DNA from: Opitutia bacterium
GTDB taxonomy: Bacteria > Verrucomicrobiota > Verrucomicrobiia > Opitutales > Opitutaceae
Direction: 5' to 3'
DNA: 64,000 nt
NCBI GenBank assembly: GCA_016187945.1
Contig: JACPIT010000005.1
Span: forward strand, 930,001-994,000
Positions 1,238 through 9,957 of this stretch are shown piece after piece; positions within the stretch are counted from its first letter, which is position 1; the number at the start of each line of letters is the position of its first letter. Both the position numbers and the translations under genes were made by a program. The notes beneath the pieces are model-generated. The model made no database searches and was not told the origin of the DNA. It saw only the letters and a list, made by a program, of their open reading frames with translations.

Positions 1238-3676
<2,439 letters not shown>

Positions 3677-3777
3677 AGCGATGGGGATGGGGTTGAAGTC
3701 CGGCGACGTTGCCCAAGTCATATGACGCAAGCCAGAGCAAACTGGGTCAACGTCGCGGAACCGTTGACCTGTAAGCC

Positions 3778-3814: not shown

Positions 3815-4507
3815 ATGCCGCTCCTCGCCGTCCGCGATCTCGTCAAAAGCTACCCGCGCTCCACTGCGCCGCGGCCCGGTGATGCGAACGGGAGAACCAC
3901 GGTGGTCGACGTGCAGGAGTTTTCCCTCGAAGCCGGCGAGCAGCGCGCGTTGCGCGGCGAGAGCGGCACGGGCAAGACGACGTTTCTCCACCTGATCGCG
4001 GGCATTCTCGCGCCCGACTCCGGGCATCTCACGCTCGACGGCCGCGACCTCGCGACGCTCGGCGAGGCGGGCCGCGATCGCCTGCGCGCGGAGACGATCG
4101 GCTACATTTTTCAGACGTTCAATCTGCTCCAGGGCCACACGGTGCTCGAGAACGTCGAGCTCGGCATGGCGTTCGGCCGCGGCGTCGATCGCGCGCGCGC
4201 GGAGGCGTTGCTGCGCCGCGTCGGCCTCGGCGAGCGGCTGCATCATTTTCCGCGTCAGCTCTCGACCGGTCAGCAGCAACGCGTGGCCGTCGCGCGTGCG
4301 CTCGCGAATCACCCGAAGCTCGTCCTCGCCGACGAGCCCACGGGCAACCTCGACGCGCGCAACAGCCGCGAGTCGCTCGCGCTCATCCGCGAAGTCTGCC
4401 GCGAGAACGAAGCCGCGCTCCTGCTCGTGAGCCACGACGAAGGCGTGCTGAGCCAGTTCGAAAGGGTCGAAGCGTTCTCGAGTCTCAACCGGGCTGCGCT
4501 CGTTTAG
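3815..4507 (+). CDS. ABC transporter ATP-binding protein (LolD/MacB type)
   Basis: This is the ATPase subunit of an ABC system of the MacB/LolD/FtsE class, 230 residues. Visible motifs are Walker A GESGTGKTT (about 49-57), Q-loop FQTFNLLQGHT, signature LSTGQQQRVAVARAL, Walker B LVLADEPTGNLD and the H-loop LLVSHDEGV. The signature has T in place of the common G (LSGGQ). FQTFNLL and DEPTGNLD are typical of lipoprotein-release and macrolide-exporter ATPases. The start is the first ATG, close to the conserved LAVRDLVKSY. The permease at 4727 is the obvious partner, although a 200-base repeat separates the two genes. Substrate unknown. Confidence 0.92.
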   Translation: MPLLAVRDLVKSYPRSTAPRPGDANGRTTVVDVQEFSLEAGEQRALRGESGTGKTTFLHLIAGILAPDSGHLTLDGRDLATLGEAGRDRLRAETIGYIFQTFNLLQGHTVLENVELGMAFGRGVDRARAEALLRRVGLGERLHHFPRQLSTGQQQRVAVARALANHPKLVLADEPTGNLDARNSRESLALIREVCRENEAALLLVSHDEGVLSQFERVEAFSSLNRAALV

Positions 4508-4517
4508 ACGGACGAAA

Positions 4518-4716
4518 AAGCTCCAAGCTCCAAGCTCCAAACCCCAAGCTCCAGAGAAGCACCAATCTTCAAAAACAAACCGGATGAACCACAGAGGCAC
4601 AAAGACACAAAGAACAGGCGCCAGAACATGCGTCTCTCCGTGCCTCCGTGTCTTTGTGGTGAATTCTTCGGCCGTTGAAGTTTCTCTGGGGTTTGGTGCT
4701 TGGAGCTTGGAGCTTT
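4518..4716. repeat. Nested inverted repeat between ABC ATPase and permease
   Basis: The outer arms at 4518-4560 and 4672-4716 are built from AGCTCCAAGCTCCAA-type units and their complement. They enclose an inner inverted pair, ACCACAGAGGCACAAAGAC and GTCTTTGTGGT flanking CCTCCGTG. A related element with the same outer and inner parts lies at 17261-17584. It is not coding. It sits inside what should be one transcription unit. Confidence 0.85.
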
Positions 4717-4738
4717 CAAAATCGTCATGACGATTTTG
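4717..4738. promoter_or_regulatory. Perfect 22-base palindrome over the permease start codon
   Basis: The half-site CAAAATCGTCA at 4717-4727 is exactly mirrored, and the permease ATG (4727-4729) lies at its centre. It abuts the right end of the nested repeat. It could be an operator, a translation-blocking hairpin, or a by-product of repeat insertion. No usual ribosome binding site is seen upstream of this ATG. Confidence 0.5.
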
Positions 4739-5935
4739 AACCTCATCTACCGCTCGCTCCGCCAGCACGCGCTCTCGACGCTCGTGACCGCGGGCAGCAT
4801 CGCGCTCGCGGCGGGACTCTTGCTCACGGTCTGGGTCGTGAAGACGCAGTCGCAGTCCGTCTTCTCCGCGACGAACTCCGGTTTCGACGCCGTGCTCGGC
4901 GCGCGCGGCTCGAAGCTCCAGCTCGTGCTCAACACGATTTTCCACCTCGAGACTTCGCCGGGCAACATCGCCGCGAGCGACTTCGAGATGCTGCGCCGCA
5001 ATCCGATGTTCGCCGGCGCGATCAAGACCGCCATCCCGATCGCCGTCGGCGACAGCTACCACGGCTGGCGCATCGTCGGCACGGTCGATCAGCTTTTCGA
5101 CACGGTCGAATACGCGCCGGACCGGCGCTACGCGTTCGCCAGTGGGCGCAACTTCAAGCTCGGCGAAAACGAGGCGGTCGTCGGCTCCTACGCCGCGCGC
5201 AAACTCGGCTGGCACGTCGGCAGCACGTTCCACCCGCAGCACGGCATGAACGCCGAGCACGAGCACGAGGAACTCTACACCGTCGTCGGCGTGCTCGCCC
5301 CGACGAACACTCCCGTCGATCGCGTGATCTGGATTCCGCTCGAAGGCATCCAGACGATGAGCGGCCACAACCCGCTCGCGAAAGCCGAGATCAGCGCCGT
5401 GCTCATCCAACTCCGCGCCAGCACCGCCGGCTTGATGATGAACAACGCGCTCAACGCCTCCGGCGGCAAACTCACCTTCGCGTATCCGATCGGCACGATC
5501 GTCGCCGAGTTGTTCAACAAGATCAGTTGGGTCGACAAAGTGCTGACGCTCGTCGCGTGGCTCGTCGCCGTCGTCGCGTCGGGCTCCGTGCTGGTGAGCA
5601 TCTACAACTCGATGAGCGCGCGGCAGCGCGACATCGCGATCCTGCGCGCACTCGGCGCGCGGCGGCGGACGGTGTTCGGCGCCGTCGTCGGCGAGGCGGC
5701 CGCGATCGGCCTGCTCGGCGCCGCGGCCGGCTTCGGTGTTTTCGCGGGGCTCGCGGCGTTCGTGGCGTCGATCATCCAGGCGCAGACGGGCGTCGTGCTT
5801 GAGCCGCTGCAATGGAATCCCGTTTTCGCGTGGGGCCCGGCGGCGTTCGTGGCGCTGTGCGTCGTCGGCGGCATCGTGCCCGCCGTGAAGGCGTATCGCG
5901 TGCCGGTGGCGGACACGATCGCGCCGCTGTCGTGA
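4727..5935 (+). CDS. ABC transporter permease (FtsX/MacB-like)
   Basis: This 402-residue inner-membrane subunit partners the ATPase at 3815. One N-terminal helix (about 18-38) is followed by a periplasmic MacB-PCD-like region (about 40-260). The C-terminal FtsX domain has three helices (about 275-395) and includes the conserved cytoplasmic loop SARQRDIAILRALGARR. That topology matches LolE/MacB-type permeases. ATG 4727 is chosen because upstream sequence in frame is repeat DNA. The frame continues upstream only to a TTG inside the repeat. Families of this type extract lipoproteins or export peptides or small molecules. Nothing here identifies the cargo. Confidence 0.92.
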   Translation: MTILNLIYRSLRQHALSTLVTAGSIALAAGLLLTVWVVKTQSQSVFSATNSGFDAVLGARGSKLQLVLNTIFHLETSPGNIAASDFEMLRRNPMFAGAIKTAIPIAVGDSYHGWRIVGTVDQLFDTVEYAPDRRYAFASGRNFKLGENEAVVGSYAARKLGWHVGSTFHPQHGMNAEHEHEELYTVVGVLAPTNTPVDRVIWIPLEGIQTMSGHNPLAKAEISAVLIQLRASTAGLMMNNALNASGGKLTFAYPIGTIVAELFNKISWVDKVLTLVAWLVAVVASGSVLVSIYNSMSARQRDIAILRALGARRRTVFGAVVGEAAAIGLLGAAAGFGVFAGLAAFVASIIQAQTGVVLEPLQWNPVFAWGPAAFVALCVVGGIVPAVKAYRVPVADTIAPLS

Positions 5936-6110: not shown

Positions 6111-6416
6111 ATGAAAAAATTCCTGCCCCTCGCCGCGCTCGCGGCGGTCTTCAGTCCGGTCGCGGCGTTCGCGGCCGATCCCGCACCGGCCACGCGCTGG
6201 TTTCTCGCGTCGCCGCTCTCCGGCCTCGCCTTGATGATCGTGTTCTCGCTCGCCGGCACCGGCCTCGCGATCGTCGGCTACAAGCTGTTCGACCGGTTCA
6301 CGCCGGGCAATCTGCACCGCGAAATCGTCGAGGAGCGCAACGTCGCCGCCGCGATCATCGGCGGCTGCGTCATCCTCGGGGTCTGCATCATCGTCGCCGC
6401 GGCGATGATCGGTTGA
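6111..6416 (+). CDS. yjfL: DUF350 membrane protein, YjfL-like
   Basis: This is a 101-residue membrane protein. After a signal-like or first hydrophobic segment (1-21, ending AFA-AD) come helices at about 34-55 and 79-100. The loop between them, YKLFDRFTPGNLHREIVEERNVA, holds the D-x3-TP and E-x2-N-x-A pattern of DUF350 (YjfL). Many family members have two such repeats; this has one. Start ATG 6111 precedes the signal-like segment. It heads a four-gene run whose order matches part of the E. coli yjfKLMC set. The biochemical role of DUF350 is unknown. The symbol is given by similarity only. Confidence 0.8.
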   Translation: MKKFLPLAALAAVFSPVAAFAADPAPATRWFLASPLSGLALMIVFSLAGTGLAIVGYKLFDRFTPGNLHREIVEERNVAAAIIGGCVILGVCIIVAAAMIG

Positions 6417-6435
6417 ACCGCGTGCGCGCGGAGCG

Positions 6436-6813
6436 GTGAAACGTTCGCGGAAGATTCGTTTGGTGCTGCTCGGCGGCGTGTCCGCCGGAGCGATCACCGC
6501 TTGCGCGCCGACGGTGAACGTGGTGGAGCCGCACGTCACGGCGGACAACGTTTACGAGAACGATCACTTCATCCCGGGCGCCGGCTACTATCACGCGCCG
6601 TTCCGCGCGTTCTACGCGCAGCCCTACAACAGCTACGACGCGACGAAGAAACAGTTCTACTACGCCGGCGAGTGGCACGAGTCGCCGTTTCAGAGTGTCG
6701 TGAACCTGTCGTCGCCGACGCCCGACGCCGCGCATCTCGCCGAGCTGCTGCGTCGCGACATCCCTCGTGGTGGTTTCGGCAGCACGTCGGGCGGTCGCTC
6801 GACTTATTCGTGA
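6436..6813 (+). CDS. Small lipoprotein, YjfM/YgiB-like (DUF1190-like)
   Basis: This 125-residue predicted lipoprotein uses a GTG start at 6436. The N-terminus MKRSRKIRLVLLGG with lipobox ITAC places the lipidated Cys at 23. The middle is Tyr-rich (GAGYYHAPFRAFYAQPYNSYD). The tail, IPRGGFGSTSGGRS, resembles the RGGFG ending of YgiB/YjfM (DUF1190) proteins, which accompany YgiC/YjfC enzymes. The DUF assignment rests on that tail, on gene position and on size, so it is moderately secure. The stop overlaps the next start (TGATG), suggesting translational coupling to the ATP-grasp gene. Confidence 0.7.
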   Translation: MKRSRKIRLVLLGGVSAGAITACAPTVNVVEPHVTADNVYENDHFIPGAGYYHAPFRAFYAQPYNSYDATKKQFYYAGEWHESPFQSVVNLSSPTPDAAHLAELLRRDIPRGGFGSTSGGRSTYS

Positions 6814-7940
6814 TGCAACGCCACGCGATTCCTCCTCGCCCCGACTGGCGTGCGCGCGTCGAGTATCACGGCCTCACTTACCACACGCACGAGAACGGCC
6901 CGTATTGGGACGAGTCGGCGTGCTACGAACTCACGGCCGCGGATGTCGATCGCCTCGAAGCCGCCGCGCACGCGCTGCACTACCTCTGCATCGACGCGGC
7001 GGAGCAGGTGATCGCGCGCGATTGGTGGGCGCGCCTCGGCATCCCCGACGCGACGGTGCCGGCGATTCTGCGCTCGTGGGAACGCGACGACTTTTCGCTC
7101 TACGGCCGCTTCGATCTGGCGTTCGACGGCATGGGCGAACCGAAGCTCCTCGAATACAACGCCGACACGCCCACGGCGCTCGTCGAGGCAGCGGTCACGC
7201 AGTGGTTCTGGCTGCAAGACACGCGGCCCGACGCGGATCAGTTCAACTCGATTCACGAGCGGCTGATCGAAGCTTGGCGCCGCTACGCGGGGCGCGCGGT
7301 GCATTTTTCCGCGATCAAGGAGCACCCCGAAGACGAGCAGACGGTGCTCTACCTGCGCGACACGGCGGAGCAGGCCGGCGTGCTCACGCGCGACGTGCAC
7401 ATCGAGGACATCGGCTGGGACGCGGCGCGCGGGCGGTTTGCGGATTTGCGCGGCGAGGCGATCGAGCGGTGCTTCAAGCTCTACCCGTGGGAATGGCTCT
7501 GGCACGAGGCGTTCGCGCCGCACCTCGCGGGCGATCCGGTGCAGTTCGTCGAGCCCGCTTGGAAAATGCTCCTGAGCAACAAAGGCCTGTTGCCGGTGCT
7601 GTGGGAGTTGTTTCCCGAGCACCCGAATCTGCTGCCGGCGTTCGAGAATGCCGACGCGGGCGCGCTCGGCGGGTCGTTCGTGCGCAAGCCGAAGCTCAGT
7701 CGCGAGGGCGCGAACGTCGCGCGCTTCGAGGGCGGCGTGGCGATCGAGGAGAACGGCGGCGACTACGGCGAGGAGGGCTTCGTCTATCAGGCGCTGGCGC
7801 CGATCCCGGAGTTCGCGGGCAATCGCCCCGTCTGCGGCGTGTGGATCGTCGATCACGAGCCGGCGGGGCTCGGCATCCGCGAGGACACGCGGCTGATCAC
7901 CGGCAACCTGAGCCGGTTCGTGCCGCACTTTTTCCGATGA
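6813..7940 (+). CDS. yjfC: ATP-grasp glutathionylspermidine-synthase-like enzyme (YgiC/YjfC)
   Basis: This 375-residue protein is related to the synthetase half of glutathionylspermidine synthase. It ligates a carboxylate to an amine at the expense of ATP; the true substrates of YgiC/YjfC proteins are not established. Visible blocks are EYHGLTYHTHENGPYWDESACYEL, RFDLAFDG, the ATP/Mg block LLEYNADTPTALVEAAVTQW (about 111-130), FKLYPWEWLW, WKMLLSNKGLLPVLWELFP and the C-terminal VKPKLSREG-like FVRKPKLSREGANV. The amidase domain of E. coli Gsp is absent. The start overlaps the upstream stop and the end overlaps DUF4178 (ATGA), so the four genes form one transcript. Confidence 0.88.
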   Translation: MQRHAIPPRPDWRARVEYHGLTYHTHENGPYWDESACYELTAADVDRLEAAAHALHYLCIDAAEQVIARDWWARLGIPDATVPAILRSWERDDFSLYGRFDLAFDGMGEPKLLEYNADTPTALVEAAVTQWFWLQDTRPDADQFNSIHERLIEAWRRYAGRAVHFSAIKEHPEDEQTVLYLRDTAEQAGVLTRDVHIEDIGWDAARGRFADLRGEAIERCFKLYPWEWLWHEAFAPHLAGDPVQFVEPAWKMLLSNKGLLPVLWELFPEHPNLLPAFENADAGALGGSFVRKPKLSREGANVARFEGGVAIEENGGDYGEEGFVYQALAPIPEFAGNRPVCGVWIVDHEPAGLGIREDTRLITGNLSRFVPHFFR

Positions 7941-9121
7941 GCCGGAATCCCACTGCTCTGCGCGTCGGCATGTCGGGCCTGCTCCGCGGGCGCCGCTACA
8001 CCGTGCGCGGCTGGGTGGTGTTCAGCGTCGTCGTGGACGGCGAGACGTATTACTGGACGGAGTTCAACGTCGCCGACGAGCGCGGCGTCGCGGCGACGCT
8101 GGTGTTCGAGGAGACCGAGGACGGGCCGACGTGGAAATGGTTCACGTTGCTCGAGCCGCGCCGTCCGCTGACGATTGCCGAGGCGGCGGCGAAGCGCGCG
8201 GGCGACACGGTGGAGTTCGAGGGGCGGCAGATTCCGATCACGCTCGTGAGCGAGTCGCACGCGGTGGAAATCGAGGGCGAGGCGCCCGGCGGCGTGTTGC
8301 GCGGCGAGGTGGCGCGCTACTTCAACGCCGACGCCGGCGAGCAGCGGCTGTTCGTGGCGACGTGGCTCGGCGAGAAGATCGAATTCTACATCGGGCAGAC
8401 GATCGGGCGGAAGTTGGTCGAGAGCGCTTTTGGCCTGCCGCCGACGAAGAGCTTCAATGAGAATTTCAGCTCCGCGACGAGCGACTCTTCGGCGGATTTG
8501 GAATACGTGAAGAACGGGGCGTGGGCGCTAGTCGTCTTGGGAGTCTTTGCGTTACGATTCATCTTCGAGAACTACGACCCCGAGCCTGACGTCCGTTTCG
8601 CCGCGCCGCCGGCGATGACGCCCGCGCCGGCGTCTGGGTTGGCCGTCGGTGCGCGCGGCACGCTCGTGGGGCGCACGACCGAAGTCGTCGAGTATGCCGA
8701 CGGCGAAGTCGCGATGCGCGGGGCGCGATTTCACGCGAACGAGTTTCTGCTGCGCGTCGCCGATCGCGGGGAGGCGCTGCTCGTGCAGGGCTGGCGCGGC
8801 GATCCGAATCACTGGCTGCTACTGCGGCCGATTGTCGTCCCGGCGACGTTCACGCCGACTTGGGCGGGCGGCTTGCGCCGCGGGTCCGGTTTTCAGGTCG
8901 AGGGACGGCGATTTGAGACGGTGGATGTTTGGCTCGAGCGCCCGAAGCCGGCGAAGGGCGTGCGCGCCGGCACGCCGTGGGCGCAGTCGACGCTCTACGG
9001 CCTGGTCGCGCGCAACGGCGAGGAGTGGCTGCTGTGTCGCTGGGACGAGAAGGAAATCCGCTGGTATCTCGGCCGGGCGTTGTCTGCGGCGACGGTGGCG
9101 GCGGCGTTTCCCAGGTCGTGA
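7937..9121 (+). CDS. DUF4178 protein, YjfK-like
   Basis: This 394-residue protein starts at ATG 7937, overlapping the previous stop. An N-terminal DUF4178-like beta domain (about 10-90) contains LLRGRRYTVRGWVVF and YYWTEFNV; a second beta-rich block follows to about 165. One hydrophobic segment (about 193-210) is followed by a C-terminal half with another DUF4178-like pattern (SGFQVEGRRFETVDVW, EWLLCRWDEKEIRWYLG). In proteobacteria YjfK (DUF4178) is encoded with YjfL, YjfM and YjfC, which supports the call. Other bacteria place DUF4178 beside S-adenosylmethionine decarboxylase or potassium channels; neither is seen here. Function unknown. Confidence 0.78.
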   Translation: MSRNPTALRVGMSGLLRGRRYTVRGWVVFSVVVDGETYYWTEFNVADERGVAATLVFEETEDGPTWKWFTLLEPRRPLTIAEAAAKRAGDTVEFEGRQIPITLVSESHAVEIEGEAPGGVLRGEVARYFNADAGEQRLFVATWLGEKIEFYIGQTIGRKLVESAFGLPPTKSFNENFSSATSDSSADLEYVKNGAWALVVLGVFALRFIFENYDPEPDVRFAAPPAMTPAPASGLAVGARGTLVGRTTEVVEYADGEVAMRGARFHANEFLLRVADRGEALLVQGWRGDPNHWLLLRPIVVPATFTPTWAGGLRRGSGFQVEGRRFETVDVWLERPKPAKGVRAGTPWAQSTLYGLVARNGEEWLLCRWDEKEIRWYLGRALSAATVAAAFPRS

Positions 9122-9128
9122 GTCGGGA

Positions 9129-9190
9129 GTAGCGCGGTGCTTCAGCCCGCGCGGGCGGATTTCTCGGCGCGGGCTGAAGCACCGCGCTAC
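9129..9190. repeat. GTAG palindrome, family B
   Basis: Inverted arms of GTAGCGCGGTGCTTCAGCCC flank a short centre. The same family occurs at 24461, 26842 and, as a single arm, at 35249. It begins 7 bases past the DUF4178 stop and may act as a transcription terminator. Confidence 0.85.
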
Positions 9191-9213: not shown

Positions 9214-9292
9214 GTAGGAGCGGCTTTACGCCGCGATTGCTGCGATGCGGCCGCCGCGCTCGAACGAATCGCGGCGTAAAGCCGCTCCTGCA
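9214..9292. repeat. GTAG palindrome, family A
   Basis: Left arm GTAGGAGCGGCTTTACGCCG and inverted right arm ending CTCCTGCA (one change from CTACA). The same family occurs at 24363 and 26927, each time next to a family B element. Confidence 0.85.
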
Positions 9293-9417
9293 GCGCTGCG
9301 TTGTCGTTGCGGTGAATTCGCCGCGGGCGGGCGACGGGCGCTGCGGGACGGCGCCCTTGCACGATCTCGCTGCCAAACCTTTTGACGAAGCTGCCGAACC
9401 GGCTACGGTGCGCGGCG

Positions 9418-9957
9418 ATGAAGGCTGCCACGAAATTCCTCCTGCTCACGCTGGCTTGCAGCGCGCTCACGTTGCGCGGCGCGGATGTCGCGGCGACGCC
9501 CGCGGCGCCGGCGAGCGGCGAGAAGAAGGAGTTCGAGCGCGTGGAGTTTTCGCTGCTCGGTGCGTTCAACTACGTGCCGCCCGGCTACGAGACGGGCACG
9601 CCCGACGGCAAGGCCGCGCCGGCGGACGCGAAGCCGAAGGACCAGATTCCGGATTTCGTGCGCAAGCTCGATGCGAAGAAGGTCGCGATCACGGGCTTCA
9701 TGCTGCCGACGAAGTTCAAGGACGGGAAGGTCACCGAGTTTTTGCTGATGAAGGACCAAAGTTCGTGCTGCTTCGGCGTGATGCCGCGCATCAACGAGTG
9801 GGTGACGGTGAAGATGACCAACGGCGGCATCCCGCCGCTCATGGACACGCCGATCACGCTCGTCGGAAAACTGAAGGTCGGCGAACTCTTCGAGGAAGGT
9901 TACCTCGCCGCGATCTACCAACTCGACGGCGAGCGGCTGCTCGACTCGAAGAGCTAG
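9418..9957 (+). CDS. Secreted DUF3299 domain protein
   Basis: This 179-residue exported protein has a signal peptide at 1-21 (cleavage near LRGA-D). Residues about 75-170 match the DUF3299 pattern: KKVAITGFMLPTKF, VTEFLLMKDQSSCCFG, then NEWVTVKM and a closing beta strand (LVGKLKVGELFEEGYLAAIYQLDGE). The paired Cys (SSCCFG) is usual in the family. The start is the ATG immediately before the signal peptide. Its upstream neighbours are palindromic repeats, so it is probably a single-gene unit. The biochemical role of DUF3299 is unknown; family members often sit near ABC/MacB-type export genes, and one lies 3.5 kb upstream. Confidence 0.82.
   Translation: MKAATKFLLLTLACSALTLRGADVAATPAAPASGEKKEFERVEFSLLGAFNYVPPGYETGTPDGKAAPADAKPKDQIPDFVRKLDAKKVAITGFMLPTKFKDGKVTEFLLMKDQSSCCFGVMPRINEWVTVKMTNGGIPPLMDTPITLVGKLKVGELFEEGYLAAIYQLDGERLLDSKS

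Follow-up and report, generated by a model that had tools for sequence, protein, structure and literature searches.

A recurrent C-terminal tail encoded beside YgiC/YjfC-type putative peptide-polyamine ligases of bacteria and phages

Which molecule is the natural substrate of the ATP-grasp ligases of the YgiC/YjfC type? The question is raised by a four-gene operon in a 64-kb stretch of DNA from an Opitutia bacterium (contig JACPIT010000005.1, positions 930,001 to 994,000; this whole stretch is called the window below), in which a putative ligase of this type is encoded together with a DUF350 protein, a small predicted lipoprotein and a DUF4178 protein. E. coli YgiC and YjfC bear the RefSeq product name peptide--spermidine ligase and are called recently characterized peptidylpolyamine synthetases in the accessible portion of PMC12568646; the natural substrate of such ligases is not named in the accessible portions of the papers cited here. 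We found that the most valuable feature of the operon is the end of its second gene, where the lipoprotein carries a C-terminal tail. The close association of such a tail with the ligase, across phyla and in phages, is well supported, and the tag on the neighbouring protein names a candidate for the substrate.

The second gene and its C-terminal tail

The features of the operon are as follows, in window coordinates and with the evidence in brackets.

6111-6416, + strand: half-length DUF350 protein P0001, 101 amino acids (PF03994, E 5.1e-13)
6436-6813, + strand: small predicted lipoprotein P0002, 125 amino acids, GTG start, proposed ligase substrate (lipobox-like ITAC)
6766-6810, + strand: C-terminal tag of P0002, residues 111-125, RGGFG then STSGGRSTYS (sequence, family alignment)
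6811-6815, + strand: TGATG stop/start overlap between the lipoprotein and ligase genes (sequence)
6813-7940, + strand: putative YgiC/YjfC-type ATP-grasp ligase P0003, 375 amino acids (PF03738, E 4.6e-148)
7937-7940, + strand: ATGA stop/start overlap between the ligase and DUF4178 genes (sequence)
7937-9121, + strand: tandem DUF4178 protein P0004, 394 amino acids (PF13785, E 5.3e-9, residues 10-156)

This arrangement of four genes on one strand, with 19 bases (6417-6435) separating the first two and with both overlaps, was as described in an earlier note made from the letters of this DNA. Pfam profile searches also bore out the assignment, in that note, of the first, third and fourth products to DUF350, GSP_synth and DUF4178, respectively; a search of all four products against NCBIfam gave no match reaching a cut-off. 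The second product, which had been taken as YjfM- or DUF1190-like, did not follow the description: Pfam gave P0002 neither a DUF1190 (PF06693) match nor any other accepted family, and its membership of DUF1190 was rejected. Among the 23 members of the P0002 family, four matched the DUF1190 profile at E <=0.1 (best E 0.014), and the same profile matched all 12 members of our DUF1190 set. In a profile-profile comparison of the two sets by hhalign, only the lipoprotein leader was aligned and the tails were not. What P0002 shares with YgiB and YjfM is a lipoprotein leader and a C-terminal RGG(F/Y)G tail beside a ligase, a likeness that is not a Pfam definition. A hit of P0002 to Patatin (E 0.01, 16.5 bits against a cut-off of 27.7) was dismissed as chance.

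The tail of P0002 reads ...IPRGGFGSTSGGRSTYS, its C-terminal end being RGGFGSTSGGRSTYS, and residues R111, G113, F114 and G115 were invariant across the 23 family members. In the best AlphaFold2 (AF2) model, residues 31-110 mostly had a predicted local distance difference test score (pLDDT) above 78, and the leader and residues 115-125 scored below 50. The five models averaged pLDDT values of 71.8, 55.6, 52.3, 52.1 and 50.8, so that the model is shaky, and a fold search with it returned nothing at E <=0.001. Since the ends of YgiB (...RGGFG...SMGG), YjfM (...RGGYG...HWGG) and P0002 are alike, the motif was sought beside other ligases.

The tail beside ligases in bacteria, plasmids and phages

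The working set comprised 119 ligase loci: two from E. coli, the window itself, 80 from genome contigs (the best 80 of 108 obtained in a ligase scan, among which the nearest named relatives were Opitutus and other Verrucomicrobia), 11 from other genomes of the phylum and 25 of viral, phage or plasmid origin. One locus, L099, was left out because its ligase start lay at the locus edge. With a strict motif, defined as [RK]xG[FYWLIMV]G within the last 45 residues, we found a tagged neighbour in 101 of the 119 loci, and variant tails were recognised by eye in 12 more (L059, L069, L085, L087, L106, L107, L110, L112, L116, L117, L123 and L124), those of L085 and L110 amounting to little beyond Gly- or Ser-rich ends. 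The partner lay directly upstream of the ligase in most loci, downstream of it in L080, L081, L084, L100, L101, L115 and L121, and was separated from it by one to two genes in the phage loci L105, L106 and L109. Three loci with weak GSP_synth matches (L096-L098) had no tagged neighbour within about 1.5 kb on each side and were treated as another subfamily.

Frames were also chosen in two ways blind to the tail. Of the 95 lipobox frames lying 1.5 kb or less from a ligase (a rule under which 35 of the 119 loci had no nearby lipobox frame), 72 contained the motif, as did one of the 56 lipobox frames elsewhere in the same loci, that one being a DUF1190 gene of the same Roseomonas cluster. When the best-coding frame just upstream of the ligase was taken, the motif occurred in 71 of the 80 genome-contig loci. 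Shuffling of the last 45 residues, with the composition kept, reproduced the motif in 953 of 22400 trials, and among the other + strand frames 60 residues or longer, 84 of 2879 contained it.

We extended the survey to 80 IMG/VR loci obtained by ligase alignment, 73 of which were new after dropping seven already included. The motif had been settled before; the search range, set at this step, took in every + strand frame within 3.5 kb that was 60 or more residues long. The motif was found in 66 of the 73 loci, or in 62 after removal of the chance-looking cases L171, L181, L188 and L205. By frame, it occurred in 69 of 1303 on the + strand and in three of 1132 on the opposite strand, and the reversed motif occurred in 17 of 1303. 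The remaining 11 loci included eight with variant tails by eye (L181, L188, L193, L201, L205, L208, L214 and L222) and three with no variant tail by eye (L171, L180 and L192). Near-identical loci are included among the 73, which hold 55 distinct tails, chance-looking ones counted.

In the phage DSS3_VP1 (L107), the ligase is the last annotated gene and has no tagged neighbour upstream. The partner was then sought at the other end of the record, where the first gene (170-424) ends ...KSTGGFGRSATASRGGSFGG, a variant tail; were the two ends of the record contiguous in the phage, this first gene could be the partner.

The tails reach the end of the protein. In 89 distinct tails, 7-24 residues (median 10) follow the motif, seven of 1100 such residues being acidic, and one viral tail (L226) ends a single residue, Gly, after it. 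In the first set, the last residue was Ser, Gly, Ala or Thr in 81 of 82 distinct tails, as compared with 70% inside the tails. Partner tails of L151, L156, L160, L165 and L043 have Gly-Gly-Glu or Gly-Glu ends, which we take to resemble the end of Pup.

The protein bodies that precede the tails were compared after trimming 25 residues from the front and 40 from the end of each protein. The 109 partners then gave 21 clusters (blastp, E <=1e-3), of which 14 had at least one strict tail and two (L059 and L080) were wrong picks and not partners. A leader of the K-R-S-x-x-I-x-L type was present in 39 of 112 partners. The Tat signal was rejected as a general export route, the 112 partners giving two pattern matches, of which one (L085) was convincing. 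Six phage or viral partners were also scanned, and five of them matched phrog_3739, one of these phrog_13808 as well, both being families without an assigned function. In the genome that contains the window, a DNA pattern for the tag (CGN arginine codons and one motif form only) gave 11 matches as compared with 16 for the reversed pattern, and only that of P0002 ended a plausible gene, as judged by eye; no wider set of tagged proteins in the genome came to light with this pattern.

According to its title, a 2023 paper by Pederick and others (Biochemistry 62:899) reports peptide/spermidine ligation by E. coli YgiC and YjfC, and it may already propose or test YgiB/YjfM. In the literature searched, which was thin on subscription journals, we found no description of the tail, and this is weak evidence that the tail is unpublished. 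The tag is not mentioned in the accessible portions of PMC11237479, PMC12568646, PMC10948618, PMC12270671, PMC4858940, PMC9397018 and PMC2731931.

Three of the loci call for separate mention. A Roseomonas plasmid (L121:3965-6315) carries two tandem ligase genes followed by a DUF350 gene and a tailed DUF1190 gene. The ligase of Acinetobacter phage KARL-1 (L109:5705-9224) lies close to annotated rII genes, and that of Aeromonas phage 50AhydR13PP (L106:5378-5656) close to an annotated lysis-inhibition gene; one can only guess at a part for the phage ligase in the timing of lysis or in exclusion.

What the ligase may do with the tail

P0003 matched GSP_synth with 493.8 bits (cut-off 29.3) over residues 12-373; this was its sole Pfam match, and the protein is thus without an amidase domain. 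Against the PDB, it matched the structures of YgiC (7uk8, E 2.9e-106) and YjfC (7uk6, E 5.3e-95) over its whole length, in agreement with the type proposed in the earlier note, and Gss at E 1.1e-24. Its score of 123.8 bits against the NCBIfam Gss equivalog NF007801 lies below the cut-off of 882. An alignment of 15 sequences, including E. coli Gss, contained 17 invariant residues besides Met1. Among these, R99, D101, E114, N116, E125, E173, K257, K292, R297 and R356 of P0003 correspond, in order, to R316, D318, E330, N332, E341, E391, K498, K533, R538 and R598 of Gss, and we take the invariant Gss-aligned residues to include metal, ATP, carboxylate and polyamine contacts. D174 of P0003 aligns with E392 of Gss, the acidic pair being E-D in the other 14 aligned ligases; E391 and E392 of Gss are presumably polyamine contacts. 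Residues S335, S337, T441 and D610 of Gss, presumably its glutathione contacts, are replaced by T, T, L and R, respectively, in P0003. The kept and changed positions together fit an enzyme able to activate a carboxylate at a C-terminus and to use a cationic amine, without binding glutathione. On this sequence evidence, P0003 is a YgiC/YjfC-type putative peptide-polyamine ligase. A study of Min-dependent inner-membrane association tabulates YgiC as cytoplasmic (PMC4858940, accessible portion), and tolC, ygiA, ygiB and ygiC are grouped as a putative or known operon in a BaeR table (PMC2731931, accessible portion).

That many bacteria and phages share this pairing suggests a tail that is modified by the enzyme, and we consider it reasonably probable that the C-terminal carboxylate of the lipoprotein is the ligase substrate. 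The operon would then be a dedicated enzyme-substrate system. The lipoprotein tail, running from R-x-G-(F/hydrophobic)-G to a Ser or Gly end, would enter the ligase, which with ATP would turn the terminal carboxylate of the tail into an acyl phosphate; still in the cytoplasm, the activated tail would be coupled with an amine that is probably a polyamine. Modification would precede export, after which the lipoprotein would bear, at the envelope, a C-terminal amide with positive charge. A link between this modified lipoprotein and the inner membrane may be provided by the small DUF350 membrane protein together with the tandem DUF4178 protein. A broader version, about as likely as not, is that YgiC-type ligases cap the RxGFG plus Ser/Gly tails of many lipoproteins with polyamine before export, by which means bacteria, and phages during infection, would set positive protein ends in the envelope. 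The earlier note had held the product of the enzyme to be unknown, which the RefSeq names of YgiC and YjfC and the title of the 2023 paper make partly out of date. Its suggestion of a polyamine or a peptide at the envelope pointed in the right direction, and the tail evidence narrows the peptide, most likely, to the lipoprotein C-terminus.

If this proposal is true, a polyamine amide at the C-terminus would be an added protein modification of the bacterial envelope. It would also offer a reason why DUF350, DUF1190 and DUF4178 genes accompany the ligase, and would raise the question of why phages, very large ones included, carry the lipoprotein-ligase pair.

A number of points weigh against the proposal. 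About 30 of the 101 strict partners were picked with the tail in view: those of L080, L081, L084, L089-L091, L093, L095, L100-L102, L111 and L112 (the last a variant) by rule with the motif in view, and those of 18 loci (L005, L006, L103-L106, L108, L109, L113-L118, L120, L121, L123 and L124) from annotation after the tail had been seen. No partner was in view at L066, which lies at a contig end, or at L119 and L122. The p-values overstate the case because the loci are related to each other and are not independent events, and given leaders that are alike across clusters, bodies that differ may still share a distant ancestor. The excess of small residues at the end was slight in the further viral set (Ser, Gly, Ala or Thr in 44 of 48 tails as compared with 79% inside, p 0.015, in a test that omitted the genuine viral tail of L226), and four tails ended in Glu. 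A cytoplasmic ligase would, moreover, have to act before export. Finally, the number of residues between motif and end is variable, so that the motif might serve for docking alone and no reaction take place at the terminus.

This last point is the core of one alternative, in which the tail serves for docking or recruitment and not as the substrate: RGGFG would hold the ligase at the membrane, and the polyamine would be joined to other peptides or proteins. The appearance of YgiC in the table of Min-dependent inner-membrane association (PMC4858940, accessible portion) would also suit it. However, the tails reach the protein end and, in the first set, finish in a small residue beyond what composition predicts; the ligase keeps the arginines aligned with R316 and R598 of Gss; and a single tagged gene was found in the window genome with the CGN-limited pattern. 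We regard docking as unlikely. A different possibility, suggested by the membership of the ligase in the glutathionylspermidine synthetase family, is that the enzyme makes a small glutathionylspermidine-like amide, which the lipoprotein, DUF350 and DUF4178 proteins would transport or sense. This seems very doubtful: the presumed glutathione contacts S335, S337, T441 and D610 are not kept in P0003, and the association with the tail is left without explanation. In addition, the 11 viral or phage loci L100-L110 gave no DUF4178 match and one DUF350 match with the queries used, yet nine of them have a tagged neighbour, strict or variant, and L107 has such a protein at the other record end.

The amine itself leaves room for a further alternative, namely the coupling of the C-terminus to an amine other than a polyamine, as in a lipid, the cell wall or a protein lysine, to give a covalent anchor with a Pup-like or sortase-like outcome. 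In the window genome (5.47 Mb, 95.7% complete, with a single GSP_synth match in a profile search), we found neither AdoMet decarboxylase nor NspC; a SpeA match fell short of its cut-off, and by eye the matching protein looks like LysA. Also present are a saccharopine-dehydrogenase-like protein and a weak, membrane-fused SpeE-like protein (L125:1291-3297, contig G000:C15), and the 16 kb around the gene of the latter contain no DUF350 or DUF4178 gene, so that a second, ligase-free operon was not found there. No recognised spermidine pathway was seen in this genome, which also counts against the proposal, and an amine other than spermidine may be used. The absence of a recognised pathway would be in keeping with an anchor, as would the few phage tails that end Gly-Gly-Glu, presumably as Pup does. 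Against it, the acidic pair aligned with the presumed polyamine contacts E391/E392 of Gss is E-D in the other 14 ligases, and polyamine synthase genes adjoin the ligase in two loci. In Achromobacter phage Motura, the lipoprotein-ligase pair is directly preceded by an annotated homospermidine synthase (L103:2303-3613), and in Burkholderia L059 a homospermidine synthase homologue overlaps the ligase start (offset -1442 to 3; tblastn E 3e-67). The polyamine link is direct in these two loci, and we give the anchor little chance. Modification of the lipoprotein C-terminus with a polyamine is the explanation we prefer.

Spread of the operon, known systems and the accessory genes

The lipoprotein family of the window adjoins the ligase in 36 of the 80 genome-contig loci (tblastn, E 1e-4), accompanied by DUF350 in 32, DUF4178 in 28 and both in 26, and the genome-set locus L089 has the same combination. 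The gene combination therefore recurs in relatives, as the earlier note had expected. The one-base overlap between lipoprotein stop and ligase start occurred in 24 of 35 verrucomicrobial-group loci having a candidate upstream frame, and the four-base overlap between the ligase and DUF4178 genes in 14 of 24 related loci. Among 288 genomes of the phylum, GSP_synth was present in 12, nine at E <1e-100 and three weakly, and a profile of the lipoprotein family, with up to 15 candidates scored per genome, matched exactly the nine strong-ligase genomes, beside the ligase in each. The same-genus genome G169 gave neither the ligase nor the lipoprotein family. The four-gene association exceeds chance.

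In E. coli, the YgiC ligase is 46% identical to P0003 and has a lipoprotein gene just upstream, the YgiB tail being ...TVTRGGFGES...SMGG. In contrast to the window, the annotation shows neither a DUF350 nor a DUF4178 gene next to ygiBC, and YgiB belongs to DUF1190, which P0002 does not match. The E. coli yjfIJKLMC operon likewise has a DUF350 gene, a lipoprotein with ...SRGGYGRSSSARGHWGG and a ligase 44% identical to P0003, in the same relative order, but it differs in having YjfI, the PspA-like YjfJ and the DUF2491 protein YjfK, and no DUF4178; in the window, the DUF350 protein is half-length and DUF4178 occurs in tandem. YjfK had earlier been equated with DUF4178. As it is a DUF2491 protein, P0004 is a different accessory gene, and the locus is not a trimmed yjf operon. 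The reported absence of YjfJ and YjfI did hold, YjfI, YjfJ and YjfK giving no tblastn match in the 64-kb window at E 0.01, a search that remote homologues could escape.

The accessible portion of PMC11237479 describes a PspA-linked group 3 with an ATP-grasp ligase, DUF350 and DUF1190, and a group 2 with DUF350, a lipoprotein and DUF4178. Relative to these descriptions, the window mixes both groups, with the ligase accompanied by DUF4178, and has no match to PspA (YjfJ). Gss is of the same family as P0003 and shares the invariant residues, which we take to be catalytic, but it is 27% identical, P0003 having no amidase domain and not keeping the presumed glutathione contacts. The phage genes annotated as glutathionylspermidine synthase (phrog_6215), which P0003 matched at E 3.9e-122, also have partner tails and differ in that, as noted above, no DUF4178 match was obtained in L100-L110.

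Of the accessory proteins, P0001 matched PF03994 with 49.7 bits (cut-off 26) over profile positions 4-66 of 133 only; by eye, its sequence shows two hydrophobic stretches besides a hydrophobic leader. P0004 matched PF13785 with 36.8 bits (cut-off 25) and consists of two homologous beta domains (about 13-165 and 235-390) flanking one predicted helix (191-211). Its halves align with each other (hhalign probability 99.9, E 1.8e-35), which adds a second DUF4178 copy. The helix is probably membrane-spanning, as judged by eye, and could place one DUF4178 domain on either side of the membrane; a DUF4178 protein is predicted to be intracellular in the accessible portion of PMC11237479. The AF2 model of P0004 had a pLDDT of 81.9 and a predicted template-modelling score of 0.47. 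Its sole Foldseek match at E <=0.001, transferrin-binding protein B, was dismissed (template-modelling scores about 0.1), and the best match in a second look, an EF-P chain (Z 5.2, 59 residues), possibly reflects a mere common arrangement, so no fold was assigned.

Contigs L031, L024 and L029, titled Klebsiella pneumoniae or Akkermansia muciniphila, bear the verrucomicrobial operon with ligase identities of 70-72%, and their record names are probably wrong or loose. Upstream of the operon, the window encodes an ABC transporter pair (3815-5935), consisting of an ATPase nearest to LolD models but below their cut-off and an FtsX-like permease, and downstream a DUF3299 protein (9382-9957); homologues of the ATPase, the permease and the DUF3299 protein also flank the operon in L008 and L047. 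Two hairpin-like inverted repeats (9129-9190 and 9216-9289, with exact arms of 24 and 23 bases) lie between the DUF4178 and DUF3299 genes. Farther upstream, the - strand at 1238-3730 encodes a large membrane protein, which we take to resemble a membrane-bound pyrophosphatase.

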